A stretch of DNA of 64,000 bases from Owenia fusiformis (Eukaryota > Annelida > Polychaeta > Sabellida > Oweniidae), in assembly GCA_903813345.2 (NCBI GenBank), contig CAIIXF020000009.1, forward strand, positions 27,130,740 to 27,194,739, read 5' to 3'. The notes beneath the pieces were generated by a model that saw nothing but the letters and a program-made list of their open reading frames with translations, searched no databases and was not told the origin of the DNA. Positions 1 through 35,681 of the stretch are shown piece after piece. The first letter of the stretch is position 1, and every line of letters begins with the position of its first letter. A program made the position numbers and the translations under genes.

Positions 1-1996
1 GGTTATAATTTCAGAAAATAACAACATTTAGACATTTTCATTGTTGGAAAATATCGAGTTTCGATCCTGGGAGCCAATCCTCCTCAAATATTCTCTAAAG
101 TTACTACATGGCAGATTACTCTTTACATCATAACAAAACATAATGTGATACAGAATCAGATATAAATATTGTATACTGATTCTATCTATTCAGTTAAACA
201 GAAGAGATGTGCATTATAACATGTTAATTTCTTTTTCTCTATCCAAGTATATAAATTATTCAACAAGTTGCGCTCAATTTCCAATTCCAGTTGTGAGCCA
301 CATTTAAAGAGTTCTATCCTGTCATATTTATTGCTAAAATTGAATTTTGTTTTCATTTATGTAGTATATTTTGTTTTGTTCTGGTTTTACCCCTGTCATC
401 ATATTCCGCAAAAAAAGCTGTTCCAATATGTAAAAATCCTTAAATTCGTTAATAAAGTCAGATCTAATCATAACAAAAATATTTATGATGGATTCTACTT
501 TGTCCAGATTTTATGATAGGAAGTTACATATTAACTAAACTGGTCTTTAAAATGACAACACACAAGCTCAGAGAAATCCATATTTTATTCATTAGACGTA
601 ATATTTATTAACTTCATTTCATATCTTGTTAATTCTAATGGAATAATCCAATGTTCATTCATCGATTTTCACAGGTAAATCATATTTCTATTTTTTTCTT
701 TTGCACAATGAATATATGTGTTGTACTCCTTTACATTAGGGCACGTCTAGGAAATATTGCCTCAAAATTATGACAGCAGCTTGGTAATTGCCCCATATGC
801 CATGAAATACAACATTGTTGAGAGTGGTTTGTTTGGGATTCTGGATACATTAATCCACAACATTAATAAATGACTTAAGAGTTAGTTTGTATATCAATTT
901 ATGAATGATACTATTATTCTCAGAATATTCTAAAATATGCATTTATTTATAGATAAATAGAGGTTATTTACAGGGAGGGATTTTTGAGATGATTTTTTTA
1001 CATATCAGTTATATTCCCCTGCTGTTATTCACCAGGAAATAAGAGTAACATGGTTTAAAAATGATATCTTGCTTGTAAGAATTGCTCCTTGTTGTCAAGG
1101 TACTCAAAAACCTAACTACAACCTCGCCTCATTAAATATTCATTTGATAATGTATCAAATATGCATGATTCAAAAATAAATTGTTGACAAATCATTTATT
1201 GCATATTGACCAGCAGGAACAGAATGACATTTCACGTAGTATGAAGGTCGATTACTGTAAATAACTTGGACTATACTCTAGCATGTTAGCCTAGAGTGCA
1301 CTGGTTAAAGGCCCCATGAAAAGTTTAAGCTACTTCACTCAACATGCTCAATGTAATCGTCAAGATATGTGAAATTCTTTTAATCGAAAAATCAAAAGAT
1401 TATCCCTAAATAATGGATGGACTTTAAGAGAATTTGGATGTTATGGAATATTGAGAGCAAAACATATTGTAACAGTATGACATTTTTTAGTCTTTTGTTA
1501 ACGTCTCTATATTTTGTACTCCTTTTATTATTAACGCTGACATTAATGCTAAATTGAACATCCATTAATGAGCTTTTCACAAAAAATAACTTCTCAAATC
1601 AATACACTGTGATTCCCTGGGCATTATAAAATTGAAAAATATTAGCATTAAATAGATAGACAGCAAACAAATGAGAAAATGTGACGGTGCTTCCACTACA
1701 TTAATAAATTACTAGAGGGTTAATGAGAAAACGATTATAATACAAGAGATAATGGGAGGAGAGATAACAATTATCCACTACTTACACTCTATCAATAAAA
1801 CCATTGCCGTGACAACGTAATAATAAAAATACCACCAGGTTAAGATACCCAGAGATAAAAATATTTATCTTTTAGAGTGAATTATTCATAAAACTATACA
1901 CATTTTTTACATAAACCTGGGAAGAAATTATAAATATGTTTTAATAAATTGAAAAGGTGATTTTTATGTTTCACGTTATACTTCCAAAGAGGGTGT
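1..1996. other. Noncoding AT-rich sequence, no gene seen
   Basis: Only short random reading frames occur here, and no splice-bounded GPCR TM1/TM2 exon could be recognised. It is probably intron or 5' flank of the GPCR gene. Confidence 0.5.
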
Positions 1997-4679: not shown

Positions 4680-7600
4680 GTAATGCTACAAAGATAAAGT
4701 ACAATCAGTTAGATTTATTTTATGTGCTTTCATTACAAGAATTTGGAAACAATATTTTCCAAAATTGTTATTTATTGCAAGGTTCATTGTAGTCTGAAGC
4801 ATTTTCCTATTTACAACAAGGAAACATTAATTGTTTGCATTCATCTAACTGAATACGATGTAATATAAGAAACCTCAAGAGCCTAATCTTTTTCTATAAC
4901 TTATTGATCAATTTCTTTTTATCAAAAGCCTACGTTTCAAGCTACAGTATGGTACCAAATGCCACATCCATACCCATTTCAAAGTCGCACAAGTGCCACA
5001 TATTAACGAAATTTACAAGCCACGTTCATATCCATTTTAAAGTCTCACAAGTGCCACATATTACCGAAATTTACAAGCCACATTCATATCCATTTAAAAG
5101 TCTCACAAGAACAACATATATTCGAAATTTATAAGGCAAATCCATATCCATTTCAAAGTCTCACAAGTGCCACATATTATTCGAAATGTATAAGGTAAAT
5201 CCATACCCATTTCAAAGTCTCACAAGTGCCACATATTATTCGAAATTTATGAGCCATATTCATACCCATTTCAAAGTCTCACAAGTGCCACATATTCTTC
5301 GAAACTTATAAGCCACATTCATATCCATTTAAAAGTCTCACAAGAACAACATATTATTAGAAATTTATAAGGCAAATCCATATCCATTTCAAAGTCTCAC
5401 AAGTGCCACATATTATTTGAAATTTATGAGCCATATTCATACCCATTTCAAAGTCTCACAAGTGCCACATATTCTTCGAAATTTATAAGCAACATTCATA
5501 CCAATTTCAAAGTCACACAAGTGCCATATATTATTCGAAATTTATAAGTCAAATCCATACCCATTTCAAAGTCTCACAAGTGTCACATATTATTCAAAAT
5601 TTATAAGCCACATTCATAGCCATTTCAAAGTCTCACAAGTTCCACATATTATTCAAAATTTATAAGCCATATTCATACCCTTTTCAAAGTCTCACAAGTG
5701 CCACATATTATTCGAAATTTATAAGCCACATTCATACCCATTTCAAAGTCACACAAGTGCCACATATTATTCAAAATTTATAAGCCACATTTATACCCAT
5801 TTCAAAGTCTCACAAGTGCCACATATTATTCAAAATTTATAAGCCTTATTCATACCCATTTCAAAGTCTCACAAGTGCCACGTATATATTATTCAAAATT
5901 TATAAGCCACATTCATACCAATTTCAAAGTCTCACAAGTGCCACATATTATTCGAAATTCACAAGCCACATTCATACCCATTTCAAAGTCTCACAAGTGC
6001 AACATATTATTCGAAATTTATAAGCCACATTCATGCCCATTTCAAAGTCACACAAGTGCCACATATTATTCAAAATTCATAAGCCACATTCATACCCATT
6101 TCAAAGTCTCACAAGTGCCACATATTATTTGAAATTTATAAGCCACATTCATGCCCATTTCAAAGTCACACAAGTGCCACATATTATTCAAAATTCATAA
6201 GCCACATTCATGCCCATTTCAAAGTCACACAAGTGCCACATATTATTCAAAATTCATAAGCCACATTCATACCAATTTCAAAGTCTCACAAGTGCCACAT
6301 ATTATTCGAAATTCATAAGCCACATTCATACCCATTTCAAAGTCTCACAAGTGCAACATATTATTCGAAATTTATAAGCCACATTCATGCCCATTTCAAA
6401 GTCACACAAGTGCCACATATTATTCAAAATTCATAAGCCACATTCATACCCATTTCAAAGTCTCACAAGTGCCACATATTATTTGAAATTTATGAGCCAT
6501 ATTCATGCCCATTTCAAAGTCACACAAGTGCCACATATTATTCAAAATTCATAAGCCACATTCATACCCATATCAAAGTCTCACAAGTGCAACATATTAT
6601 TCGAAATTTATAAGCCACATTCATGCCCATTTCAAAGTCACACAAGTGCCACATATTATTCAAAATTCATAAGCCACATTCATACCCATTTCAAAGTCTC
6701 ACAAATGCAACATATTATTCGAAATTTATAAGCCACATTCATGCCCATTTCAAAGTCACACAAGTGCCACATATTATTCAAAATTCATAAGCCACATTCA
6801 TACCCATATCAAAGTCTCACAAGTGCCACATATTATTCAAAATTCATAAGCCAAATCCATACCCATTTCAAAGTCTCACAAGTGCCACATATTATTCGAA
6901 ATTCATAAGCCACATTCATACCCATTTCAAAGTCTCACAAGTGCAACATATTATTCGAAATTTATAAGCCACATTCATGCCCATTTCAAAGTCACACAAG
7001 TGCCACATATTATTCGAAATTCATAAGCCACATTCATACCCATTTCAAAGTCTCACAAGTGCCACATATTATTTGAAATTTATAAGCCACATTCATACCC
7101 ATATCAAAGTCTCACAAGTGCCACATATTATTCAAAATTCATAAGCCAAATCCATACCCATTTCAAAGTCTCACCAGTGCCACATAATTCTCAATTGAAA
7201 ATATGATATTAATTTTATTTCTTAATATTTTTGAAGTTTTAATACAGCAATATTTACATATAAACAAATGAAACAGGTGTGAAGAACATCCCAAAATTAA
7301 TGAACTGCCATCTATCCGAGTCCTGGCTCCCATTGCTTACTAAATGCTTATAACATTTCTATGTGCGACTATGTCATTTGCTAGCTCTATGTTTTTATGA
7401 ATTATCAAAAGCCTTTATGTATAGATTAATTGCAAGCTCAAAGTCTATGCTAATTTAAATATTCAATTTATTAAATTATCACTTCAGTATATAACGATAA
7501 TGTAGTGTTAGAACTGAACCATATTGAACAGTTGAAATTCATTTTCAAAAATTGAAAAATTCTGCCTTTTGTAAACAACAATGATTGATCAATTTAGAGT

Positions 7601-10600
7601 TAAAATTAATGTTTATTAAAACCAACATGAGTAAGCATCATTAATCTTGATGTGACCTTAAGTAAACAATAGATCCTTGGCTCAGTTTGATAGATTTAAT
7701 ACACACAATCCTTGACTTGAACCATAAGTCACAGTGTGGGCACCTAATTGGGGAGATATCACCATTCATATAGAAAGAATGGTTTTCAGTGACAATCACA
7801 ATAGGGGGCATCGAGGGGGAAATAACCATAAAGAAAAGAATGGTTGTCAATGACAATCACAATAGGGGGCATTGAGGGGAAAATAACCATACAGAAAGAA
7901 TGGTTGTTAGTGACAATCAAAATAGGAGCATCGAGGGAGAACTAACCATATAGAAAGAATGGTTTTCAGTGAGAGTCATAACAGGGGGCATTGAGGGGGA
8001 AATAACCATATAGAAAGAATGTTTTTCAGTGACAATCACAATAGGGAGCATCTAAGGGGAAATAACCATATAGAAATAATGGTTTTCAGTGACAATCACA
8101 ATAGGGGGCATAGAGGGGGAAATATCACCATATAGAATTCGAAAGAATGGTTTTCAGTGACAATCCCAAAAGGGGGCATCAAAGGGGGAAATAACCATAT
8201 AGAAAGAATGGTTTTCAGTGACAATCACAATAGGGTTAATATAGTAAATTAACAGCCATGGCAAAAATGGCAGCAATTTTTCAAAATGGCCACTTTCTAC
8301 CAAAAATGTCATTAGACAGTGTGCCATGGTTATAGTATTCACATACCAAATATGAACAAAATCGCTCCACTACTTTTCGAGTTATAGTAAAATACATTAA
8401 AATGGTGGCCATTTTTCAAAATGGCCGCCTTCTACCAAAAGTGTCATTAGACAGTGTGCCATGCTTATAGTATTCACATACCAAATAAAAATGAACAAAA
8501 TCGCTCCACTACTTTTCCAGTTACAGCAAAGATCGAAAAATAACGAGTAAATGCCAACATTTTTCAAGATGGCTGCCATGTGCTTCTTTAATATCTACAT
8601 TTCTAGCTTTATTAATGTCTTATATCATTTTTTTACATTTAAAACATATTGCTATTACAGTTTTACATGTTGCACCTAAATTACTGTAAAATCGGCACTA
8701 AAATGGCCGCTCATTTAAAAATTTTGAAAATCGCCTTTCGAGCAGAACTTCTACCCCCATAGGGTATATGTATACAAAATATGAACAAAATCGGGCCAAC
8801 TTAACAAATATGCAACTTAACAAAAGCAATATCAAAGTCAGTCCATTTATGTCAAAAAAGAAATAATTTTATGATAAAGTAAATGCAGTAATCAGCAACC
8901 CTATTTCAGGATGCCTCAATAACCTAAACATCTTGACATAACAGAAATTAACTATTAATAAGAACATCTTTTTTCTGAAATGCAATATATTATGTAACAA
9001 TAACTAGAATGACATTTTCTCTATTTCCGAGAGGATGTTAGAATCTTCAGTGTCTTTGTTGTCATAATTGCATATGTTCCATAAAAAAGATGTACATCAT
9101 TGAGGGTATGCAGCATTTCTAAAAACATTTAAAGGTGCAATAAAATCTAAAGATGAGTTTAAATTAACATTTTAAAAATTGTTACATTTTCTAACATTTT
9201 TTGCTTTCAACATTCCATAAGTACAAGGTATCACAATGCATTTAACATGCAAATTTTCAATCTATGCTTTGCTGCAACTTTTATGAGATTGTTGGCCATT
9301 GTTGGTTGGAATCCATGAGGTATCTTTCATGATTATTTCAACAAACATCTTCAAAAGTTAATTTTATCATAAAGGACCAGGTATGGTATGGCAAATGATT
9401 TTAGACATTCATATATTTTACCATGATTATATTTTCTCCATAAACATGATATTTCTCATCAAAATAATATGTCTATCCACATAAATTTCTTCAATTTCTG
9501 TGGGGTCATATATCTATTTAATGAAAAATATTCATTCAAAGTATTCATGGTCAGTATATACTTAAGGTCATAGGTATGACTGTCTTAAATCATTTCCCAA
9601 GCCAAACCTGGTCTTTAATGAAAAAGTAACTTAATCAGCATGAAATTAAATTTTATTGACATGCTTTAAATTGGCTTCTTCAGTTGGTCAACCTACCCTG
9701 ACAGTAGAAACATTGACATAAGACACATTCAATTAATCATATCCTGGATAGAATATAAACTAAATATTTGTAAAATTATGATTCATGAATAAAAGCTGAT
9801 TTAAATAGAAATAGTTTATCTGATTCCTGTCATAACAGACATATGCCATTGCAAATGTCTGGCTGTAATCCTTTAATAATCCTAGTTGAGACTACTGACA
9901 ATATTTGAACAAATTAATTTTTGAATTTTTTTACATACTTGACACAAAAAAGCTGCCATAACTAATAACTTCATTGGATTTCGAAATGTTGCTCTTTGTT
10001 TCTTATAACATGCTTCGGTACAAGTTTTATTCTGCATGTTTCAGCTAACGCTACATTTTGTCCATAAAATCAAACTGAAAAATAAAAATCATAAATTGTA
10101 CAGTACTTATTTATTTTTAGGTAATTTATTTTGCTATAAATGTATGTTATCTGCAATACATACGAATATATTGACTGCGTTTTAGTAATTAGAAACATTA
10201 TAAAAGTCATGAGCTCATTGAAGGGCAGAAATTTATTGGAAAATTATCTTTAGACTTATCGATAACAAAAAAAAAAAACATTCATGGTTATTCAAAGAGC
10301 GTCATAAAACTATCGATCTGACTGATGAGAAATGTCATAAACATGAACAATTACATCACTGATTCCAACTTTGTTGAATTGAATGGTAACAGTGATGATG
10401 AAACCAAACGTCTCTGGAATTGACTTTTTACAATCAATATCACCGGTTGTTTCTTTGTATTGACTTAAATTGGCTTTAATATTGACAAATCACTCTTGAA
10501 TCTAATTGCTTCTACAATTTGTAGCTTTCTCAACTGTAAAATGATAAAATCACATTCCCTGTTGTGTTTGCTAGCTAACATTATGGGATGAAGCGTGGGA

Positions 10601-19923: not shown

Positions 19924-22900
19924 CTGTAATGAAATAATTTTACAATACAATACACTACACTACACAAAAAATTTATAAGGCTCTTATTAGATTATTGAAA
20001 TACAACTGAGAGATTTTATCATCATTTTTCTAAAATCCAAATTCATGTTTTAAAACTAGGGTATACATGTATATCATAATTATAAGAAAGAAATCCCTCT
20101 ACCAATAATATTAATTTGACTATCCTAAGAAGTTATTTCAGAGGTGAATTTTAAAAGCCCCTCCCCCATTGTTCTGACCTGGTTGTTTGAGTGAGGCCTC
20201 ATACTTTGCTGAGAAGTATGGGAGGAAGTAGACACTGTTGGGGTCAGTGTGGAGGTGAATGGTGATTATACCAGATGATGAGCTGATGATGGGAGGTGGG
20301 TTCTTCATACCGCAGAACTTCCCCTTGGAGTCCTGAAATACATAACACAATCATAAAGAGTACAGTAAGGAAGTACAGCAAAACCTGTCTAATCCAAACA
20401 CCACAGCCAAAAGTGTTCAGTTCAGATTAACATGTGTTCACATTTCAAAGTTTTCTCAGTATGTGAGTATAAGTGGGAGATAACAAAATTGTGACAGAGA
20501 GAAAGGGTTCGGATGAGAGAAGTGGATGGTCAGATATGCAGGGTTCACTGTAACGTCCAATCAGGTAATTTATCAAGTACCCGAAGCCCCATCTGGTGAA
20601 CTGTGTCTATGTATGATATAAGGGGGTACATTTCAGATTATATATTACATAATTTCTCTAATAGATGGCAGTTCAGGTTCCTGTGATTTTATCGGAAAAA
20701 AGGCTGCACAAATTAATTACAAACAAAGAGAACATTGATTGTCTAATCAATGGCTTCTGTTTAACTCCATAAAATGTTTCATTTACAATATGATTTTATA
20801 CAAAATACAAAGTTGAGATCTGATTGTGACTGATATATGGATATTTTTATTAGAGGACCATTCAGATATATGTTCAATAATGATTTAACTTGTTTTTCCA
20901 GAAAAAATACATACAAAAAAAACACACAAAATAGAACACTTACTTTATTTCCTACTAAGACCTCCACATAGTTCTCATTACAACCATGCTCTGAGGATAC
21001 GTCAAACTTTGTGAATATCAGTGTTACTCTGTACTTGGGCTTCACTTGTATATGCCAAACACAGTCACTGTAGGGTTCCGTGGATGAGCGAATCTTACCG
21101 CGGATCTCAGAGAATGTCCCACCACAAGAATCTATATGAAAGAATGGGAATTCATAGGTAATGATGAACAGGGTGTCAAGGACTTCAGGAAAAATATGAA
21201 TTTTTTGCACAGATTTTTGGAGCTTGAAGATCCAACCAGTAAATTATATGCGCTAAAATCATCCTTAAATAATCATCAATGATTAAACGTAATGCAAGGT
21301 AACAGAAAACCAAATATTTATTTTGTTCAATATGAACATAGGATACAATTACAACAGATACAAAATACCAATAAACTAGAGGGACATAAAATTCAGAGAA
21401 GTCATTCAAAATATCAACCTAAATTGAAACTAGCTTAACCTCAATAACGCAGATGCGAGTAGGTAGTTACCAGATTCACCACCAGGTGGCTCGTTCGGGT
21501 CAGATAGCATGGCGGGTATAGGAGAAAGTTCCCTTAAACTTAAATCACATCTGTTTTAATGATTCAATTTTCATATAACCCTTATGTATCTAATAGTTAT
21601 GCAAACTGAAATATGTCCAGTAAAAGAAAATGTTATCTATCCAATACAAGAAAAGATATTTCACTTTTTGTGATTTTGTATCATGGGGTCTATGGGGAAT
21701 CAACCCGAACAAGAAGTCACATTTTCAAAAAAAATTAAATTTTCAAAGTTGATAAACAATTTTCAAAACCATATTTTTAGATGTACTTTTACATGCAGAT
21801 TTCAAATATGACATCACTTTGACTGAATTTTTAATTTTTAATGACGTAAATCAAGATTATTTCTACTCGCATCTGGGTTATTCAGGATTTCTGTCTATTT
21901 TTCTATAAATTCATATAAATATCAATAAAATTCAAGCATTCCAATACAAAGTGTCATGTAAATGAAACGACATGCTTCAACTTCCTAAATTCAGGCTGAT
22001 ATATTTCGATTTCTTACCTTTGAATTCAGGAGCTTTAGGAATGCATTTCCAGCCGTTTCTATGCAACATGTAACCACGGCGACACTGGCATCTGTAGCCC
22101 TGGATGTTGTTCTTGCACCAATGTTGACATTTTGTCTCCTTCAGTCTACACTCATTATAGTCTACCTACAGAATAGACCCTGGCTGAAATATCTTTTACA
22201 GAATAGACCCTGAATGAAACATCTTTTACAAAATAGACCCTGGAAGAATATCTTTCACAGAATATACCTTTGATGAAATATCTTTTACAGAATAGACCCA
22301 GGCTGACATATCTTTTACAGAATAGACCCTGGCTGAAATATCTTATACAAAATATATCTTTTACAGAATAGACCCAGGCTGACATATCTTTTACAGAATA
22401 GACCCTGGCTGAAATATCTTTTACAAAATATATCTTTTACAGAATAGACCCTGGCTTAAATATCTTTTACAGAATAGACCCTGAATCGAATATCTTTTAC
22501 AGAATAGACCCTGGATGAAATATCTTTCACAGAACAGACCTTTGATGAAATAACTTTTACAGATTAGACCCTGACAGAAAAAACTTTGGACATTTTTTCA
22601 GCTAATGTGGTAGTATTTTAAAAACGAATATATAAATAATATTTAATTTCAATTTCTTTTTATATACTCTCACCTATTACATATGACATCTTCAGTTTGC
22701 TGTTGTCTGTTGATGACCACAGTATCATTGCAACTGATGTGGTTAACACCAATTCACTTGTAGTTGAGCAGTTGTGGCGTACACTACTGTACCTGAAATA
22801 TACATTATAGCTGCATTGGTCAATTGTGATGTACTTATAGAGGACAATATTTAAGAAATATAGACTGAGGAGCAGGGGTAATATTGTCGAATACACCCTG

Positions 22901-25900
22901 CATGGCTAGGCACAAACGTTTTCTGTAACCCAAGACCAAAGGGAGTGAGGGGTTCGAAAGTTTTTGTGCCTAGCCCTAGGGGTGTATTCGACAATATTAC
23001 ACCTACTCTGAGCTCTATATTACAATTCGAACATGAAAATTCACCAAAATGTTTCGAATATTCATTATGACATCGCACATTACTCGTATTAGCAGAGGTA
23101 TTGTTTGCGAATATACCCCTGGTGAAATGTTGACTTTGTTCACAGTTTACAGGAGGCGTGAATACAGTCATGTTCGAATGTATCTTATTGTTCCTGACAT
23201 ATACAATACTATTGTTGTGTATAGTATGGTAGAATTCTCCAAATGACATGATAGCTACAGATAAAGAGAGAGAACTGAGGAGAGGAGAGAATAGTGAGAG
23301 AATTGAAAACGTGAGGGATTCAGGGGAGAGTGTAGATAAGGGTAGACAAATATTAAAACTATGTATATAAACAGGGAAACCTGTTCAGTGGAGCACATCT
23401 GTAAGGGAAAAGCTTTTCTGGTTGCCAATAAACTTCATGTAAAATGAAATTCTGTTAGTGGAACATTATTTTGAGGTACCCTAGGCATTCTCCTTACAAA
23501 TGTGTTACTCTGTACTCTAAAATAATTTACCTGTCTAATTTTGTTGTTTCATTTATATCATTGACACTTTTCTTTGTGCCTCTATTGCGGTTGGAGCTAT
23601 CCCCGCTTGTTTTAATATAGATGTCTCCCACACAGTTCTCCCTTGTACGGTTCACTTTTCTCAGGTCAAAGGTCAACTGGATTCTCACACTGTTGTTACC
23701 TGTGATAAAAAATTGAGTATCATCTGAACAAACATTAATTTGATAATGTCAACAATAAGGCAACAAAAACCCCATTGAACATTTTCGGTAATAATGTAAG
23801 CCTTGAAATACCTCCATCTATCACCCAAGAGCACTCAACAGGGCGACTAGTTGGCACGGGGACCAGAGGAGATTCAATGTTTCCTGTTCTTGACATCTTG
23901 TAGGCGACACAGTCTAAAATAAATCAAACTTATACAATATAAGCCATACTTTTTACTTCCACAGAGTTCTTTTTAAACCTCTTGAATACCCAGAGTGACA
24001 GATATATCCGTCACAAATGAAATAAGACTGATGCCCAGAGGGACGAGAAAATCTGTCACAAAATTTTTCACAAAAATTGCTCTCATTTGAACAATTTTCA
24101 TCCAATTTACACAAAAATTGTTTTAAAACGTGTAGAAATGATCTCTGCCGTCCAATTTTACTAAGCTGAGCATCTAAAGTTGTATAGGTATGTAATAAAA
24201 TGTCAAAAGGTGGCAAAAAATGAAAAATTCTCTGGTTTCATGCCAATTTTAGAGCCTGGGATTCAAGAGGTTAAATTCATATATAAGACAATTTACATGC
24301 TAGCGAAATTTATATATTTTAAGGTAATTATAATGCAACATCCATGATAAAGTAATTGTACATGTGCAATATCCCATTTTGAAGAAAAGTATGATTATGT
24401 CAATGGTCATTAGGATGCATAATCTTGTACATAGTACCTTTATATCGTATGTTGTACTTCCTGTATTTATAGTCCACAAAATACTCGCTGCTGCTATATC
24501 CACTGCTACTCTCACCGGAGCCATCATCCATGGGACTTTCTAAAATATGAAGAACAAGGCATAACATTACAATATAAAGGAAAAAATTTCAAAATTTTTA
24601 TGTCTTTTTTTAGACAGTTAAACAACTGTCAACTTTTCATTCAAATTTTTTTTGACAGTTTCTGTAGTACAGGGTGATCATTAAGTTTATATCTATATAT
24701 TCACAGGGGAGTTCACAGCATTGAGACATCTGTCTATAGTGAACATGTTTATTTGGAAAAATTTATGTATACAACACTTGAATACAAATAAATAAAATAC
24801 AATAAATAAAATGACAACATATTTGAATGTGTCTAATTGACAAGTATTCGAACTTACCCACATTATAATGAGCCAAGAAACCTTTACTCGTTATAGATGA
24901 ATCACTTCGGAATCTAATCCATAAACTACGATACGATTCAATGATGCCTGGTTGGCCCTCACCACAAAATCGACCAATCAGCTTTCCCATTTCATCGATG
25001 CCTTGTCTGACTTCCACAAAGTCAAATGTGCAATTTGTTGATTTCTCGAGACTGAATTCTGTGAATTCCATTGACAGAAATTGACCTAAAATGAAAAGAC
25101 AATTAAATCGTCACACTTGTTTTGGGACAAAAAACGGCAGTGTATGTACTTGTAGCTTTTAGTATCATATCATATGCTATGTATGGATTTATTACCAGTA
25201 CATGTAATGATTATTTAATTTTATATAATTCCTGAAATCAATTGAATCACAATTCATGAGACCCAACACTATTAACAAAGTTACTATGGCAACTATTGAA
25301 AAAGACAACTAAGTTCAAACAATAGAAATACAATACAATACAATTTTCAGACAAGGCATTAACATGCAAAATGTCACCATCTGCCATTTGTTACAAATGC
25401 CATTCTCCACTAAAAAGTTGGAGACTACAACAATATGTCATCACTTCTGGTGGTGACATAAAAAACAACGATCCTTTAAATCTTTTAATCAAGTTACTAA
25501 CCCGGCTGTATATGTATGATCCAAGTACAGTTGTGGTTCCTCAGGTAGCTTATGGGGTAGTGTGGGGTACTCAGGTTGCCATGCTTACCAGTAAGCTCTT
25601 CATAACACAGGGGCTCTGAATATTCATGTACAAATAATGATGTTTTAGCACATATTGAATTGTGTCATTGCTTCCCATGTAAGGTATTGTAACAAAGATG
25701 GCATGTTCTATCATCGTACATGGTGAACATTTTTTTCAAATCTATCTTTCTTGCAGCCTAGCTTTTGCTTATTATTTGTATACAGAAAAACTTTTATATT
25801 CAAAAACACCAATCTAATTTGAACACCTGCAAATCCAAACACTTTTGCCCAGTCTCAGTGGCATTTGGATTGGACAGATTTTTGCAGATATCATGACCAA

Positions 25901-28900
25901 GACAGAGTGAAAGCAGAAACAGTTTAATTTAGTTGTTTATGATACCACATGGCTCTATGTGCCTATATTACACATCACTAATGTTGATAATCCAGGGCTT
26001 CTAGTATTAAATAAGATGTAAAGCATCAACCATCTCTGAAAATATCACCTTGAATATTAAAGTTACATTATACAATACAGAGTTGTTAGTCTACTTACTT
26101 GGACAGTTGTACAGCAACCTGGCTTGAACCATATCACCAGGACTTAGTCCATCTCTCTGGCCAATCTCAACATTTTTCCTTAAAGGTTCAATGGTTGATT
26201 TACCATTTTTACTGAAGTGTAGCTGAAGAAGAAACACTAAGGCTTTATCAGCTTCAAAGTTGTAATATTTTTTCAAATATTTTTTGAGTAATATTTTTAA
26301 TTGCGGTCAATCATATAGCAGTTGTAAATATAAAATCATTGTAAAATCAACATTAATATGGTTCCCATTTTGAAACCAGATATCACTTTGAAAATTTCAG
26401 AAATTCTGTCCCCATAACGCTTAAAATAATTTAATCAAGTTAATATGCGTATAAAATATGAACAGAATTGAACTCAGAAAATAACTAACCCTTCTGTAGT
26501 GCATAATGGAGTAATAGTCATACGGCTGGCTGAGAGAGTCAATCTCAAAAGAAAACTTCTTGTCAAAGTTCTCTAATTTCTCTGCAATGATGTTCTGTTT
26601 GAGGACCTTCACATATTTATCTCTATCTGGTCTAAAACATTTAATGAAATACTATATAGTACTATCCATGCATAATCAAAATGTTAATGAACGATAAAGT
26701 TAGTTGGGTTCAATAGTTTTTTATTGGATATTTTTGACTTTCAGTGCCTCAAAAGTTCATAGCAAAATAATTATGTTAAAGCAACTAATCCCAGAATCCT
26801 GTGAATTTTGCTTGTAAATTTTTCAACCTCTTGCTAAATTTTTACCATTATTGTATCAAACTTATGGAGGCGTTCTGCAGGCTGCCGCACCATCCAAAAG
26901 TCCCATACAAGCAATTTAAGTTTGGCACTAAAAATTCCCTACCTGCTATGTTCGTGCCAGAATCCAATGACGTGACCAAGTTCATGCACGACTACACCAT
27001 AGTTGGCACAATGAGGAGATAGAGTGACATGTTGTTTACCCCCTTGACGACCAACAAAAGAACAACATCTGAAATGAAGGAATATAATCTTAGAATTCTT
27101 TCAAAAATACAATCTGGGATTTTTTTCAATATAAATAGCCAGCTCCGCTGAGCAAATATTTTGATACGTGAATAGAGGTTTATGTGTGTATAGAAGTTTA
27201 TGTCTTTAGGGCAACCAAGGTCAAAAAGTGTAATCTGAAAGTTTAGCGTATTTACGACAATATCCAACAATAGTGGTCGAAACAGGTCGTACACACTCAT
27301 TTCCACTGTAATGTCTATATTAATTATTTGGAAATTCCTTTTAGAACAGCAGCACCCAATTAGTGCATCCATCATATATAAAATACAAATGAGATAAAAC
27401 ATATACATGTAATTCATAAAATCAACGAAGAACATGCACACAACTATTGTGCATAACACATATGTTATTTCATTCAAGTCTATTAATACCATTACCAAAT
27501 AAAAATGAATAACATAACTTACCCACAGTGTCCTGGTGTAAAGTATATGTAGTCTTTCTCATATGTTCTATTGATAAAGCGTATACAAGTGTTTTTCTCC
27601 CAGTGACTCATGGCAAGCTGGATATTCTCTGTTACAGCATCTAGAAAAAACATGATATTCCATAAAAGTGACACTCATTTAAAGGAGGACATTTTTGTAA
27701 CTATTTTTATAACTTCCACTGTGACACCTTGACCTGAAAAAATTGGGGTATGCCATATCATGCGACCTTGATCCAACAAGATTTTCTATGGCCACTGTAG
27801 GTATTTCTCAATTTCTGCTATATGCTTGCTGTAGAGCAAATGTGACTAAGGCCTTAAATTATTGGTTCAAAAATACCCTGAGTGCAGAAGTAAGTTCTGA
27901 AGTAACCTCTGAGTAGTTAAGACAATTTTACGGTTCAGCAGCCCCACCCCAACTGCCAGTGCCCATCAAACCCCAGGGCATAAATCAATTCAAACCAGCT
28001 GTGTTGACATCTTCTCAACAAATCAACGGATCAAAAGAAACACATTTAAATAATGGTGTAATGTTGGTCAATACTGGGTAGGCAATGACTTCAGAAGAAA
28101 TGACCATATGTAGAAATTTGCCTGTCTGACAAGCTCTGACTGGCTCAATGAGTTCAAAGGTTTCATTTTAGAAGTCAAATGAATATGAAAAGGTAGTTCA
28201 AAAATGGTGTCAACAGTTTTTTACCTGTGATGTTAGGTCCTATAACGTAGGGTACTGTCTGATTGCTCCACTTTCTCTCAGTCAGTCCAGTTACAGCTCT
28301 CTTTTGGCGAGTCTTCTGCAATTAAATTTTACATTAGTACTCATACATAAAATATGCTTAAATATCAAATCAATAACACATATATGCTCCAACACTTAAA
28401 TAATCAAGAAGTAAAAAGTAATTCTAATTATCTAGAAATATGAAAAAATGGTGCTTTAAAAGTTTATTACAATTGGTATGCTCAAATTACCTTATAATTG
28501 GTGTTTTGAAGCTACCCTATACTTGCTTTGTTGAAAGTACTTTATGATTGGTGCATTGAAAATACTTGTAATTGGTGTTTTGAAAATATCTGATAATTGG
28601 TGTATTGAAAGTACCTTGAAATTGGTACATTTGGTATGATGAAAGTACTTTATAATTGGTGTGTTGAAAATACCTTATAATTTTTGTGTTGAAAATACCT
28701 TGAAATTAGTTGTTTAAAATAACTTATAATTGATGTGTTGAATGTTCCATATAATTGGTGTTGAAAGAAAGTACCTTCTGATTGGTGTTAAAAGTACCTT
28801 AAAATTGGTGTGTAGAAAGTACTTATAATCGGTGTGATAAAAATACCTTATAATTGTCGTGATGAAAGTAGTGATCATCTAGCTGTGGCTGGTCTAACTG

Positions 28901-31900
28901 TAGCAAAGACTCTAGATACACATGCTGCTCGTACAATCCACGGAACTCTTCACTTGTAACTGCAATGTCACCCTCAATGATGATAACATCTACAAATAAA
29001 TACATATTATCATGACAAAATGTCACCTTCAATGATGATAACATCTACAAATAAATACATGTTATCATGAGAAATGTCACCCTCAATGATGATAACATCT
29101 ACAAATAAATACATGTTATCATGAGAAATGTCACCTTCAATGATGATAACATCTACAAATAAATACATGTTATCATGAGAAATGTCACCCTCAATGATGA
29201 TAACATCTACAAATAAATACATGTTATCATGAGAAATGTCACCCTCAATGATGATAACATCTACAAATAAATACATGTTATCATGAGAAATGTCACCCTC
29301 AATGATGATAACATCTACAAATAAATACATGTTATCATGAGAAATGTCACCTTCAATGATGATAACATCTACAAATAAATACACGTTATCATGAGAAATG
29401 TCACCCTCAATGATGATAACATCTACAAATAAATACATGTTATCATGAGAAATGTCACCTTCAATGATGTGAACATCTACAAATAAATACATGTTATCAT
29501 GAGAAATGTCACCCTCAATGATGATAACATCTACAAATAAATACATGTTATCATGAGAAATGTCACCTTCAATGATGTGAACATCTACAAATAAATACAT
29601 GTACATTTTATTTTTGACAAAATGTCACCCTCAGTGATGACAACATCTACAAATAAATACAGTACATGTTAAAATATCTTCATCTGGTTGCAATTACATA
29701 TTTTCAAATTAAGTTGTAGACAAGGTATTAACATGCAAAATGTTACCACCAGCCATTTGTTACAGGTGCCAAATGCCAAACTCCAAACAACCACCGACTG
29801 CAGCCACAAAAATAACACTTCTGATGTTCACATAAAAATGATTAACCCTTAGAACTGACGCTGAAACCATTTAAATGCATTAAAATTGATTACAGTCTGA
29901 GTAATTTTACTTACAATTTCTTTTATTCATAATTTACTACTCGGTATAGCATACTTATTCATATATAATAAATGGTTACTTATTTGTTTTATAGTACTTT
30001 TAGGCAATTTACTTACAATTCAAAATCTTGCTATTTTCAACTTTGTTTTGAGAATATCTTTATTTACATGAGAACACCATGATAGCTTGCTATTTCCACC
30101 CAACTGAACGAAATAGGAAGCCTTGTTTGGCTGAAATTCCTGGGAGATGAATATCATTTTCGCAAGATTCAGGTGAATACCATTTTTATGAGAGGAATTA
30201 GGAGGAAAAATATAATTTCTTTTCAATATTAAAATATTCCGGGTATTATTCACCAGGAAGTAGTAGTATCATGGGAAAGAGTTGTATATTTAAAGATTAC
30301 ATTTTCTCATATTAAAATGACACTCTGGAGTAAATAAAAGTTAATAAAAGTTCATAGGAAAATCAAATGTCATAATTCTATTAGGTTATGGTGTACGAAA
30401 TCAATCATTCTACGATAACCTGCCAGATCTTTGACACCATATTCGATGCCTGATTTCCCAAGAGATTATGTAGTAATACGAATGAGGATAGTTCAGTCAG
30501 ATCATTTAAGCACAATAGCTTCCAGAAAAGGTCCCTGCAGAGTATTTTAATTTTCCTGATGAGGGTCTTTCTAGTTATCCAGATAAAGGGGTCTCAAAAG
30601 AATAAAGATAAGGTAGTCAAAAATATATGATAAATTTTATATGATAGATATAAATATGTATGATAGATATGATATAATAAAGATGTATGGCTCTGTTACA
30701 ACTCATATTTTTAGATGTTGCGACTAGGGTATATTTTGAAAATGCACAATCAAACCTCACTCAATGTCGTAATAAATGAAGAAATCGCAAAATGTGATAT
30801 TATCTCAATATTTAAAGAAAAATGTCACACCTTTGTCACAATTTTAATTCATATGGACCACAAGTCCATATAATACATGTACATATTTTGAACTTAACTA
30901 ATCTTAGAATTAGATGTAATAAATATATACTTTTAACTCAAATATACTAAAAGTCTAGTGCTTCTGAGAAATAAAAAGAATAAAATAGATACATTATTCA
31001 AAGTATAGTTTTACTGTGGACTAACATTCAACCCTTCACAAACATTGTTTATCCCCTCTCCTCTGAGAGAGAGATAGTCCATTATGAAGAAGGATGTATG
31101 TAGTGGATGGTGCCAGGAGCCCTGCACTTGGAGGATGCTATACTGAAGAGAAGTCAATGTGTCCAGCCTTTCCCCACAGACACACGCACATTCCTATCAG
31201 CACAAGACGACTATAGTAAAGCACTCTTTAACTCATTCAATACTGGGCCAAAAAGCACTAAAATACTGACAAATTTTGAAAATTGCCATATATGGTAACT
31301 CTGAAATAATGGATGTAGTGTATACATGGGCATACATATATAGTGTTATATATCATTTTAAAGCATATGATATACTCTTTCAGAATGAATAGGTTTTTAA
31401 GTCCCATTTTATAAGTTGTCATGGTTACAAGATTCCAAAAAATACATTGAGTTTGTGCTTGGACGTGATATCACGTCCTTAGTAGTCAACGTATGTGCTT
31501 TATGACGTCATATCACGTCCTCCGTAGCTAATGAGTTAAAGTGATAAAAATGTTGCAATCATTAGGAAAACTCAGATTCGGAGTTCTACATGAGAAAATT
31601 ATTATTTTATGATAGTCTACACTAGAGATTCAGCTAGGGACTCCTTAAGCTGTAAAACATCAGGGGAGGTATTGTAATTACACTAAATCATATCTCCAAA
31701 CAATAAATGTCATTTGTTGTAAATATGATGAATGCCAGATATGACATTGAGACAGAACTGGAGAATATATTCCTTCTGTGTTTACTCTAGTTTGCAACTC
31801 AATGCAGTTATGAAAATCTGCATATACCGCACTGGCGGATCTGGGGGGGGGGGGGGGGGGCCTGGGAAAGCAGAAAAAAATTGGGCCCAAAACTCAAGGC

Positions 31901-34900: not shown

Positions 34901-35681
34901 GTCCAGTTTTAGTAAAGCTATAGTAGTCATATCATTTTACTTTTTGAACTTTGGATTTTGAACATTTTAGATTTTGTTTAATATAGGCCATGAATATTTC
35001 ATTTTCCTTGACTTTGAAGTTCTCCCATTTTGCATTCTTTCCGTCTATAGAAATGTGGATTAAAACAGAGATGTTCATGATTTGTTATGCTTGTTTTGTC
35101 AGTTGCTAGTCTCAGCCCCCTCCTCCCCCCCCTATGTCAGATATCATCTTGTTAAAAATTACAAGATTTATGTGGTACCTAATGGCCTCTGTGTACCCTG
35201 CGTGCAGAGTCTAGTTAAACTACACTCTGCCTAGTAGAGACCATTTTACAGTTTAGTAGCCCCGCCCCCACGACGAGTACCGGTGACAGTTTGGGTAATA
35301 AATCACTTTTGACCTACGCACTGACCTTTCTTCCACAAATCAGCGAGCTGGAAGAAGCGTATGCCAAATGCGTTCTTATATAGAACGTTGGTTAAATTTG
35401 GCCAACGAACACTGATTGGCGCGGTGAGTTCACAGGTTTATTTTAGTTTGAAAGAGTGAAGACGAAGCTCTCTTTTAAGAAGTGAAGTCAAACGAATGCA
35501 TAGGGTGGCCTCTACCCACTTCCAGCTCAAGAGGTCTACAATGTAACAATTTCTTGGCAATGCAATAAAAATAATCAAAATACTTACCCTCCTCATTCCC
35601 CTGCTCCTCTGGGTTTCCTATGCACCCTGAAAGGATAGCTAGAGTCATGGTACACAATAGTATGCACCGTAGCCCAGTCAT
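19212..35681 (-). CDS. tld: Tolloid/BMP1-like astacin metalloprotease (18 exons, complete)
   Basis: Secreted zinc endopeptidase of the BMP1/Tolloid group. Relatives cleave Chordin/Sog and procollagens and shape BMP gradients. Exons in transcript order: 35681-35588, 28989-28847, 28315-28225, 27640-27523, 27068-26943, 26631-26490, 26222-26099, 25615-25502, 25085-24858, 24539-24438, 23913-23812, 23699-23531, 22792-22674, 22161-22018, 21131-20944, 20332-20179, 19923-19657, 19381-19212. All phases join, giving 864 residues plus TGA. Order: signal peptide (1-21), propeptide ending RQKR (82-85), astacin (86-279), CUB1 (280-393), Ser/Gly linker (394-427), divergent CUB2 (428-557), EGF (558-605), CUB3 (606-719), CUB4 (720-864). 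Canonical Tolloid is astacin-CUB-CUB-EGF-CUB-EGF-CUB-CUB, so the second EGF and one CUB are absent. BMP1 itself (astacin-CUB-CUB-EGF-CUB) is the nearest match plus one CUB. Confidence 0.93.
20179..21131 (-). CDS. tld: Tolloid-like exons 15-16: CUB3
   Basis: Exon 15 (21131-20944) reads [40 protein letters not shown] and [12 protein letters not shown]. Exon 16 (20332-20179) reads [20 protein letters not shown] and onward to YEASLKQP. The four CUB cysteines and the FCG turn are present. NYVEVLVG replaces the usual DYVEVRDG. Confidence 0.92.
20376..20550. mobile_element. Pogo/Tigger-like MITE
   Basis: TA at 20374-20375 and 20551-20552 flank ends beginning CAGCAAAACCTGTCTAATCC and ending GCAGGGTTCACTG. 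CAGyrAAACCTGT-type ends with TA duplication are typical of pogo-family elements. Related pieces: 25783-25882, 43137-43316 and CAGTAAAACTTTCATC words at 53737-53830. Noncoding, inside a Tolloid intron. Confidence 0.65.
21450..21875. mobile_element. MITE family A, copy 1 (426 bp, CAGATGCGAGTAG ends)
   Basis: The left end CAGATGCGAGTAGGTAGTTA and right end CTACTCGCATCTG are inverted. The interior includes CACCAGGTGGCTCGTTCGGG and TAACCCTTATGTATCTAATA. Other copies: 59639-59938 (inverted, internally deleted) and 60070-61420 (carrying a second insertion). No coding capacity. Lies in the intron between Tolloid exons 14 and 15. Confidence 0.85.
22018..22161 (-). CDS. tld: Tolloid-like exon 14: EGF-like module
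   Basis: Encodes (D)[43 protein letters not shown]. Six cysteines sit in EGF order. The D-x-NEC start and the C-x-C-x2-GY stretch fit a calcium-binding EGF. The acceptor used is GTAGGTAG|ACTAT (22161), because only this keeps phase with exon 13. The acceptor lies directly against a 30-bp tandem array. Confidence 0.9.
22162..22580. repeat. 30-bp tandem array abutting the EGF exon acceptor
   Basis: Plus-strand unit AGAATAGACCCTGGCTGAAA TATCTTTTAC, about 14 copies with a few short units. On the transcribed minus strand each unit reads GGTCTATTCTGTAAAAGATA TTTCAGCCAG, so every unit carries a pyrimidine-containing stretch ending in TTTCAG. The last unit merges into the real acceptor GGTCTATTCTGTAGGTAG|AC. 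Confidence 0.9.
22674..23913 (-). CDS. tld: Tolloid-like exons 11-13: divergent CUB2
   Basis: Exons 23913-23812, 23699-23531 and 22792-22674. The first reads [20 protein letters not shown] and [10 protein letters not shown], a normal CUB start (C...G.I.SP...C.W.I). The next reads [20 protein letters not shown] and so on, and the last ends LKMSYVI. The C-half lacks the usual DYVEVR/FCG landmarks and carries several N-glycosylation sequons. The fold is inferred from position and from the N-terminal half. Confidence 0.8.
23973..24276. mobile_element. MITE-like repeat, copy 2 (relative of 16030-16270)
   Basis: Inverted ends: TTTAAACCTCTTGAATACCC on the left and GGGATTCAAGAGGTTAAA on the right. 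The interior shares TAGAAATGATCTCTGCCGTC and AAAATGTCAAAAGGTGGC with the copy after the GPCR gene. Located in a Tolloid intron. Confidence 0.75.
24438..24539 (-). CDS. tld: Tolloid-like exon 10: Ser/Gly-acidic linker
   Basis: A 34-codon exon, phase 1 at both ends, encoding [20 protein letters not shown] followed by [14 protein letters not shown]. It lies between CUB1 and CUB2, where canonical Tolloids have almost no spacer. The acidic SG pairs ([10 protein letters not shown]) resemble xylosylation sites for glycosaminoglycan attachment. This is inference from motif only. Confidence 0.8.
24858..25615 (-). CDS. tld: Tolloid-like exons 8-9: CUB1
   Basis: Exon 8 (25615-25502) was found by phase and motif: [20 protein letters not shown] then [11 protein letters not shown], the first half of a CUB. 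Exon 9 (25085-24858) continues [20 protein letters not shown] to [17 protein letters not shown]. Together they give the four CUB cysteines and the calcium-site-like (F/Y)DFVEVR stretch. Without exon 8 the phases still fit, so an exon-skipped form lacking the CUB1 N-half would stay in frame. Confidence 0.9.
25345..25480. repeat. Interspersed about 125-bp repeat, copy 1
   Basis: Shares TTAACATGCAAAATGTCACC, CTGCCATTTGTTACA and AATATGTCATCACTTCTGGT with 29715-29850, 41965-42060 and 42860-42995. All four are in the same orientation. Possibly a SINE or short MITE. No ends could be defined. Confidence 0.7.
25783..25882. mobile_element. Pogo-like MITE fragment
   Basis: CAGAAAAACTTTTATATTCA with AAAACACC on the left and TTGGATTGGACAGATTTTTG CAG on the right, flanked by TA-like bases. 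Matches the end pattern of 20376-20550. Confidence 0.5.
26099..28315 (-). CDS. tld: Tolloid-like exons 3-7: cleavage site and astacin catalytic domain
   Basis: Exon 3 (28315-28225) begins KTRQKR, a furin site, then [10 protein letters not shown], the mature astacin N-terminus. Exon 4 (27640-27523) encodes [20 protein letters not shown]. Exon 5 (27068-26943) has [16 protein letters not shown] and the zinc site [15 protein letters not shown] (residues 177-191), which fits HExxHxxGFxHExxR with the catalytic Glu. Exon 6 (26631-26490) has [10 protein letters not shown] and the Met-turn SIMHY. Exon 7 (26222-26099) finishes with [16 protein letters not shown]. All residues needed for catalysis are present, so the enzyme should be active. 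Confidence 0.95.
27860..28210. repeat. Interspersed repeat, copy 1 of a SINE-like family
   Basis: Shares TACCCTG.GTGCAGA, ATTTTACGGTTCAGCAGCCC (versus ATTTTACAGTTTAGTAGCCC) and the right part ..TGGC..GATGAGTTCA.AGGTTT.ATTTTAG with 35200-35470. In the intron between Tolloid exons 3 and 4. Confidence 0.6.
28447..28846. repeat. About 25-bp degenerate array copying the exon 2 donor
   Basis: Plus-strand unit AAAATACCTTATAATTGGTG TGTTG, about 16 copies. On the transcribed minus strand each reads CACCAATTATAAGGTATTTT, which matches the exon 2 end GACAATTATAAG|GTATTTTTA. At least six units keep AAG|GTA (for example near 28490, 28610, 28670, 28697, 28772 and 28794). The exon's final 25 bases form one more unit. 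Confidence 0.88.
28847..28989 (-). CDS. tld: Tolloid-like exon 2: propeptide
   Basis: Encodes (D)[18 protein letters not shown] and onward to HHDNYK. The acceptor is TTTATTTGTAG|ATG and the donor AAG|GTATTT, and the phases fit exons 1 and 3. Both exon edges are repeated in the adjacent arrays (28990-29670 upstream, 28447-28846 downstream). The last 25 coding bases are themselves a unit of the downstream array. Confidence 0.85.
28990..29670. repeat. 54-bp array copying the exon 2 acceptor and first codons
   Basis: About 12 units of 54 bp. Minus strand: ATGTATTTATTTGTAG|ATG, TTATCATCATTGAGGGTGAC, ATTTCTCATGATAAC. Each unit therefore holds a copy of the acceptor TTTATTTGTAG and the codons for (D)VIIIEGDI. 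Eleven consecutive units are open in one frame (29606-29010). The unit next to the exon has one extra base and a TGA, so the array does not read through into exon 2. Some units carry GTGAACATC instead of GATAACATC. Confidence 0.93.
29715..29850. repeat. Interspersed about 125-bp repeat, copy 2
   Basis: TTAACATGCAAAATGTTACC, CAGCCATTTGTTACAGGTGC and CAAATGCCAAAC place it in the family of 25345-25480 and 42860-42995. Confidence 0.7.
29851..31228. other. Tolloid intron 1, no feature recognised
   Basis: AT-rich, no conserved exon. The upstream part of this 6.6-kb intron also shows no coding signal. Confidence 0.5.
31229..31540. mobile_element. MITE-like element with GGACGTGATATCACGTCC palindromes
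   Basis: Ends TTTAACTCATTCAATACT and TAGCTAATGAGTTAAAG are imperfectly inverted. The right half holds a perfect 18-bp palindrome at 31461-31478 and a second near-copy (GACGTCATATCACGTCC) at about 31504-31520. Noncoding. Confidence 0.55.
31827..32060. mobile_element. hAT-like MITE (CAsTGGCGGATCTGGG ends) with G-run
   Basis: Ends CACTGGCGGATCTGGG and CCCAGGTCCGCCACTG are inverted, a pattern common to hAT-derived MITEs. Inside are a run of about 19 G and repeated TTTGGGCCC words. The two flanks do not show a clean 8-bp duplication. Confidence 0.65.
32061..35195. other. Tolloid intron 1, mostly featureless
   Basis: Includes a C-run at 34286-34300. Short open frames are random. No conserved exon on either strand. 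Confidence 0.5.
35200..35470. repeat. Interspersed repeat, copy 2 of the 27860-28210 family
   Basis: Sits in intron 1, about 120 bp inside the first donor. It has ACCATTTTACAGTTTAGTAG, CCCCGCCCCCAC and GATTGGCGCGGTGAGTTCAC. Its higher GC content than the surroundings helps mark it as inserted. Confidence 0.6.
35588..35681 (-). CDS. tld: Tolloid-like exon 1: signal peptide
   Basis: Starts at ATG 35681-35679, first in the frame, and ends in phase 1 at GTAAGT. It encodes [20 protein letters not shown] and [11 protein letters not shown]: a short basic n-region, a hydrophobic core and a likely cleavage near SGC-IG. The split codon joins exon 2 as Asp (G|AT). The first intron is 6.6 kb. Confidence 0.85.

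Follow-up and report, generated by a model that had tools for sequence, protein, structure and literature searches.

Can both borders of a single exon be drawn out into tandem arrays, and what would such arrays mean for splicing? The question is raised by a stretch of 64,000 nucleotides (nt) from the genome (498 Mb) of the polychaete Owenia fusiformis, positions 27130740-27194739 of contig CAIIXF020000009.1 (C9:27130740-27194739), which was analysed as a whole and is called the window below. Two syt1 primers published for this species (PMC8111721) fit the genome exactly and once each, converging on one contig: the forward primer at C11:1988496 on the plus strand, and the last 20 letters of the reverse primer at C11:2020441 on the minus strand; reversed controls matched nowhere. 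The elav1 forward primer from the same paper had no match, which a position across an exon junction might explain, and hemerythrin and COX1 likewise had no matches, an uninformative result. Its minus strand carries an astacin protease gene whose closest matches are BMP1 and tolloid-like 1. Exon 2 of this gene, a propeptide exon, is bordered by an array of 54 base pairs (bp) that repeats its acceptor junction and by an array of 25 bp that repeats its donor junction. We give a probability of about 0.8 to the reading that these are two independent “mirages”, as duplicated intron-exon boundaries are called in amphioxus, which arose by neutral slippage at the exon borders, have no function, and leave splicing to the exon-proximal sites.

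Two unrelated arrays each hold one border of exon 2

On the acceptor side, Tandem Repeats Finder (TRF) reports a period of 54, 12.8 copies and 94% matches, and each unit consists of 28 nt of intron end and 26 nt of exon 2 start. The acceptor TTTATTTGTAG occurs 13 times when the real one is included. Its AG is kept in all 13 copies, and in every case ATGTT follows, as at the start of the exon. The ten inner units have a mean identity of 98%. Identity to these units is 95% for the exon-proximal unit and 81% for the two outermost, whose greater divergence is expected if the ends of an array escape homogenisation. By eye, the outermost unit has the same TTTTGTC context as the exon-proximal one, suggesting that the exon-proximal form may be older than the inner form. 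The step beside exon 2 measures 55 nt as opposed to 54 nt in the inner array, which produces a TGA.

An inverted repeat places the acceptor of most units inside a predicted hairpin. Its arms are 10 bp long in the inner units, with one G-U pair in the exon-proximal unit, and it is equalled by 7 of 5000 mononucleotide shuffles. Folding z values range from -1.8 to -2.2 for three junction stretches and reach +1.3 for the whole of exon 2 alone. As a structural prediction, this repeat may have helped the 54-bp array to expand.

The donor-side array is more degenerate. Cyclic alignment yields 18 rows with the consensus CACACCAATTATAAG up to the junction and GTACTTTCAA beyond it; the first two rows hold the end of exon 2 and 16 lie downstream, the last of them partial. 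Full rows agree with the consensus at 19-24 letters. A GT is present at the donor place in 11 of the 15 full downstream rows and absent from the other four, so the donor decoys are partly decayed. A TAA is completed 24 nt beyond the normal end of exon 2.

The last 25 coding bases of the exon match the 25-bp unit at 21 of 25 positions. This score was reached by none of 200,000 random 25-mers from the window (about 2% of draws, falling in arrays, were skipped) and by none of 1003 25-mers ending in AAG, and a chance likeness was therefore rejected. No likeness to either unit is seen in the middle 92 nt of exon 2, for which 295 and 316 of 500 shuffles do equally well, nor is there any between the two units themselves (424 of 500). 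The exon thus has one edge in each of two unrelated arrays, 26 and 25 nt deep. Because the units are unrelated and their divergence differs, the two edges must have been amplified separately, and the contrast between 98% identity in one array and 19-24 of 25 letters in the other suggests that the arrays differ in age or turnover. A DNA search of the genome, with a tool that skips simple repeats and common words, matched each array only at this locus; within that limit, a dispersed repeat was rejected as the source of either unit.

An initial annotation made from the letters alone had described about 12 upstream units carrying the acceptor and exon start, about 16 degenerate downstream units matching the exon end and donor, a last stretch of 25 coding bases that is itself one such unit, and independent amplification of the two edges. 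Both arrays, the downstream count, the unit at the exon end and the separate origins hold, and the alignment it had named as a possible refutation finds border sequence in both units. The upstream count is corrected to 13 acceptors, the real one among them.

Table 1. Features of the exon 2 locus and of one further array in the same gene (positions in the window; a slash marks the splice junction)
Feature	Position	Strand	Basis or remark
Exon 1, coding part (signal peptide)	35588..35681	-	donor AGG/GTAAGT; ends at 35588
Exon 2 (propeptide, ends ...HYFHHDNYK), 143 nt	28847..28989	-	phase 1 in, 0 out; splice signals
Exon 3 (furin-like site KTRQKR; first part of astacin domain)	28225..28315	-	splice signals, phases
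54-bp array, 13 copies, each with the TTTATTTGTAG acceptor	28964..29661	-	TRF
Open frame of 204 codons across eleven units, 18-residue repeat, closed by TGA beside exon 2	29010..29624	-	
Inverted repeat, real acceptor in predicted hairpin, repeated in inner units	28980..29013	-	
Degenerate 25-bp array: last 25 coding nt and donor, 16 further units, last partial	28446..28871	-	
30-bp array abutting, not crossing, the likely acceptor of an EGF exon	22167..22587	-	TRF

The gene and its paralog

The phases of exons 1, 2 and 3 are mutually consistent and the exons lie in frame and in order; phase and splice signals together indicate that the borders assigned to exon 2 are the authentic ones. The astacin domain matches BMP1 in the PDB with an E value of 1.1e-49, as against 1.5e-31 for astacin. 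A Pfam scan of ten gene pieces found Astacin, CUB and EGF exons, with CUB and EGF downstream of the catalytic domain, and returned no family for two of the ten pieces, one being exons 1-3 joined and the other the exon inside 23735-23923.

At C9:8.10-8.15 Mb, on the same chromosome, astacin, CUB and EGF matches are taken from their order and strand as one gene, a second one of tolloid type. It carries RSRRAATARPERLW at its furin site, which we take to be close to the vertebrate BMP1 sequence, so that the gene in the window is better called a tolloid-type paralog; below, “the paralog” denotes the second gene. Its furin exon (RSRRAATARPERLW...) together with part of the next exon scores 63.5 bits against BMP1 over 60 amino acids, and a 68-amino-acid piece of the window gene scores 52.0-55.8 bits against BMP1 and tolloid-like 1. 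A candidate tolloid paralog at C11:16.84 Mb, whose match to exon 2 has no visible splice sites, was rejected for comparison in favour of the gene on C9.

The propeptide exon of the paralog starts AG/CG GGG TTC ATG GGA GAC ATA GCT (AGFMGDIA) and has both the GDIA motif and the entry phase in common with exon 2, which implies that the start of exon 2 is older than the 54-bp array. This comparison suggests that the array was probably seeded from the exon start. No array crosses either border of the paralog exon, which ends quite differently and is longer (277 nt versus 143 nt). On the donor side, therefore, the array may have been seeded by the exon, or the exon may have taken its end from a unit.

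Repeats do occur near the paralog exon. In the intron of this minus-strand gene, three degenerate 43-nt copies at 8322-8528 of locus L096 (C9:8138700-8148699) stop about 10 nt short of the acceptor (exon base 8311), with 81% and 63% identity to the reference copy. Within the exon itself, at a distance of 8 nt from the donor, there is a low-complexity repeat (12 bp, 2.8 copies) that crosses no border. The furin exon of the paralog contains a coding 21-bp repeat with a GHTN motif (4.9 copies, 7419-7520 of the same locus) just before its RSRR cleavage site. One of its CUB exons (L050, C9:8109204-8112398) has a 23-bp array about 19 nt before the acceptor and a 45-bp array about 10 nt after the donor; although both arrays come within about 20 nt of it, neither holds exon sequence, and this exon was classed as a near-case and not as a full mirage.

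Splice-site strength and the products of decoy use

Splice sites were scored with a position-weight matrix drawn from this genome (47 donors and 73 acceptors, mostly automatic calls), with the sites of exon 2 excluded. The real acceptor scores 16.3, the highest of the 13, and its twelve copies score 13.0-15.3. The real donor reaches 8.8 and is equalled or beaten by three of 15 downstream GTs, seven of which reach 6.2, the 10th percentile of reference donors. We infer that splicing would normally use the exon-proximal acceptor and donor pair (28989/28847).

Joining exon 1 to any of the 12 alternative acceptors leads to a premature stop before the furin site. Eleven of the 12 products end in ILS followed by the stop, ten of them after at least one 18-residue repeat. 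On the other side, nine of the 15 downstream donors were tested, and all nine add VFLSHRL and then stop, also before the furin site. The remaining six must stop as well, since the nearest downstream GT lies just after the TAA that is reached 24 nt past the exon. As the stops precede the furin site, use of a decoy would lose the enzyme.

The statements of the initial annotation that units beside the exon close the open frame (the TGA after the 55-nt step upstream, the TAA downstream) and that decoy use truncates the product are borne out, and the scoring it had called for has the outcome given above. Its picture of many decoy sites holds at the level of sequence.

Related arrays in other animals

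Minisatellite-like duplicated intron-exon boundaries are described in amphioxus for Adh3, the globins BflGb6 and BflGb9, troponin C and PGBD5 (PMC3087553, PMC3902484), the PGBD5 case being added and troponin C cited in PMC3902484. Both 5′ and 3′ boundaries are found duplicated there, and the data are said to suggest no interference with regular splicing. Their authors note that the extra sites could serve as cryptic sites and that the origin of the repeats is unclear. The repeats differ between haplotypes, in Adh3 also in somatic tissue, and may lead to new introns (PMC3087553).

The amphioxus cases and the exon 2 arrays have in common minisatellite-like tandem copies that span an intron-exon boundary, on the acceptor or the donor side, and an AG or GT in many but not all units; the 54-bp array also has the homogenised inner units and divergent boundary units. 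The exon 2 arrays thus display, at both edges, every mirage feature that can be checked in sequence, homogenisation applying to the 54-bp array only. Exon 2 differs in its annelid host and in having unrelated units on both edges of one exon, whereas the two sides reported for amphioxus globins belong to different genes. Length instability and undisturbed splicing are amphioxus reports, while the arrays described here are known from the sequence of one assembly.

In human IFI6, as related in a citing paper (PMC4526556), a minisatellite at the exon end provides several splice donors, as at exon 2; two downstream units of IFI6 are used as alternative donors in mRNA, whereas all nine putative downstream donors tested at exon 2 give a stop. 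Human segmental duplications contain variable internal tandem repeats at exon-intron boundaries (PMC2812944). Like the exon 2 arrays, these are minisatellite expansions at a boundary, a process that alters gene structure and may create introns; they vary between recent human paralogs and about half are coding, whereas the copies at exon 2 lie in introns and the exon itself is read as usual. For earthworm metallothionein, minisatellites in introns are mentioned, as are duplications of exon 4 that have no explanation and do not appear in transcripts (PMC12783039); this is perhaps a related annelid case. In the literature searched on minisatellites and splice sites, no annelid case named a mirage was found, which is not proof of absence.

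Frequency of border-crossing arrays

Arrays are common, making up 12.3% of the window and, among the loci sampled, 5.4% of the 40 astacin and 10.1% of the 52 CUB/EGF loci. When the arrays of the window were rotated against a 17-exon model, in which some exon ends are estimated and several are off by a few bases, two observed borders were covered by arrays compared with a mean of 4.2 under rotation, so that an array next to an exon is unremarkable as such. A wider survey covered 87 loci with 179 borders (104 acceptors and 75 donors), called automatically, so that wrong calls are possible. It omits five of the 52 CUB/EGF loci (L077-L080 and L088), which are near-identical copies of L076, and its borders are not fully independent, since L047 lies inside the window and some CUB loci overlap.

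In this survey arrays cross two borders, against 10.9 expected by rotation, and lie at most 40 nt away on the intron side in eight cases, against 13.9 expected. Both numbers fall below those under rotation, which speaks against any attraction of arrays to exon borders. Arrays are probably kept from coding sequence by selection, with border-spanning arrays as rare survivors.

A second mirage is present at L089 (C6:19814118-19817237, 1220-1563, minus strand). Its 116-bp unit, present in three copies, combines the acceptor GATGTTTCAG with roughly 60 nt of an EGF_CA exon, and the upstream copies end in an in-frame TAA. The crossing at L087 was rejected as a mirage and is read as a coding EGF repeat. 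L070 (C1:49130000-49133185), a CUB exon in a cluster of such exons, is a near-case only: its acceptor TTGTATTGTAG resembles a 12/23/38-bp array running up to it, and the array called by TRF ends before the acceptor. As a rough figure drawn from a single case, independent hits at about 1 in 180 borders would give double hits in about 3 of 100,000 exons, a handful per genome.

Proposed origin and competing explanations

Neutral slippage seeded at exon borders, one of the possibilities raised by the initial annotation, gives the best fit. In its favour are the exon-plus-intron units at both edges, the pattern of homogenisation in the 54-bp array, the top score of the real acceptor, the stops that follow decoy use, the paralog exon with no array across its borders, the second mirage at L089, the abundance of arrays, and the published amphioxus mirages, which include duplicated 5′ and 3′ boundaries with splicing reported as undisturbed. 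Short segments spanning each junction of exon 2, of 28 nt of intron plus 26 nt of exon on one side and 25 nt around the donor on the other, would have been tandemly duplicated, and both minisatellites would then have lengthened on the intron side through slippage or unequal exchange. Exon 2 would have seeded at least the 54-bp array, and the arrays would differ in age or turnover. The spliceosome would normally take the exon-proximal acceptor and donor, units that entered coding sequence or shifted the frame would have been removed by selection, and the arrays themselves would be without function.

Several observations weigh against this account. All 13 acceptors are strong, at or above the 68th percentile of reference acceptors, and under simple first-AG scanning an outer acceptor could win. 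The choice between real and decoy sites is judged here from sequence scores on one assembly. Pure neutrality does not account for the 10-bp hairpin, unless the hairpin aided slippage, and the unit at L089 lacks an inverted repeat of this kind: its longest arm is 5, and 945 of 1000 shuffles are as good. Only 1.9% of window rotations yield an exon flanked by two different arrays, and with a single genuine border crossing among the 179 surveyed, a local cause or selection is conceivable for an exon hit at both edges.

The strongest alternative concerns the donor side and is compatible with neutral slippage: the 25-bp array may have come first, and exon 2 may have captured one unit as its last 25 coding bases. 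We regard this as a minority possibility. The unit at the exon end has an ordinary array identity, its 21 of 25 matches lying within the 19-24 of the other full rows, and it encodes a stretch before the furin site; the paralog exon is longer and ends differently. Against this reading, the alignment extends 16 nt deeper into exon 2, but the exon without its last 25 nt fits the unit no better than shuffles do (369 of 500 score as well).

Much less probable is regulated unproductive splicing, in which decoys would turn a share of the transcripts into forms that contain a stop and are prone to decay, thereby setting the dose of the protease. The stops before the furin site with all 12 alternative acceptors and all nine tested donors, the strength of the 12 decoy acceptors and the placement of the acceptor in a repeated predicted hairpin would suit such a scheme. 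These stops are also what drift yields, and near-identity of the units is enough to explain why the decoy acceptors are intact. Decay is under way in the donor array, the more degenerate of the two, where seven of 15 GTs reach the 10th percentile. The paralog has no array across its exon borders, and amphioxus mirages are reported in PMC3087553 and PMC3902484 not to disturb splicing. The suggestion that the arrays tune inclusion of exon 2 or secretion of the protease is not supported: the paralog does without a border-crossing array and every decoy product tested is truncated. A regulatory role is possible but unsupported.

That the upstream array encodes 18-residue repeats of a longer propeptide isoform is very improbable: read in the phase in which exon 2 is entered, eleven units are open, but all eleven products end at the TGA beside the exon, and shuffling only the intron part of a unit leaves it open in about 43% of trials, so the open frame was rejected as coding evidence and is likely a by-product. 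An assembly artefact, with a wrong array length or flanking order, is equally improbable, because although tandem arrays are generally prone to mis-assembly, the units carry distinct variants, exons 1-3 follow one another in the right order and frame, and another mirage exists elsewhere in the genome at L089.

Other arrays in the window and in related loci

The 30-bp array farther along the same gene contains TTTCAG and TCTGTA motifs, and by phase the EGF exon probably begins a few bases beyond it. Two large arrays lie outside the gene, at 4961-7186 (59 bp, 37.7 copies) and 60310-61127 (162 bp, 5.1 copies).

Elsewhere in the genome, C4:25902380-25916673 (L076-L080 and L088) holds at least six EGF_CA exon copies, five of them equal in score; four of the five gaps measure about 1.46 kb, and the arrangement is apparently a tandem array of whole exon-intron blocks. 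L071, L082 and L087 contain coding arrays of EGF units of 123 bp, or 41 codons, with an in-frame stop inside the array of L071, and EGF matches also recur at 123-bp steps in C11:24.43-24.51 Mb.

Implications

What is new here is the annelid host group, the two-sided arrangement on one exon, and the second instance in the same genome. A bolder reading, which we hold only tentatively and consider less likely than not, is that mirages are not peculiar to cephalochordates and reflect a general process in minisatellite-rich animal genomes that is actively moving exon borders in this annelid, with exon 2 as an intermediate of border relocation or intron gain. The donor array would then already have supplied the last 25 coding bases, and the acceptor array would offer twelve ready-made alternative acceptors.

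The 12 near-identical decoy acceptors beside one presumed real site amount to a natural experiment on how the spliceosome chooses among near-equal sites. If mirages are shared by amphioxus and an annelid, tandemly duplicated splice junctions would provide a more widespread stock of raw material from which introns can be gained and exon borders shifted.

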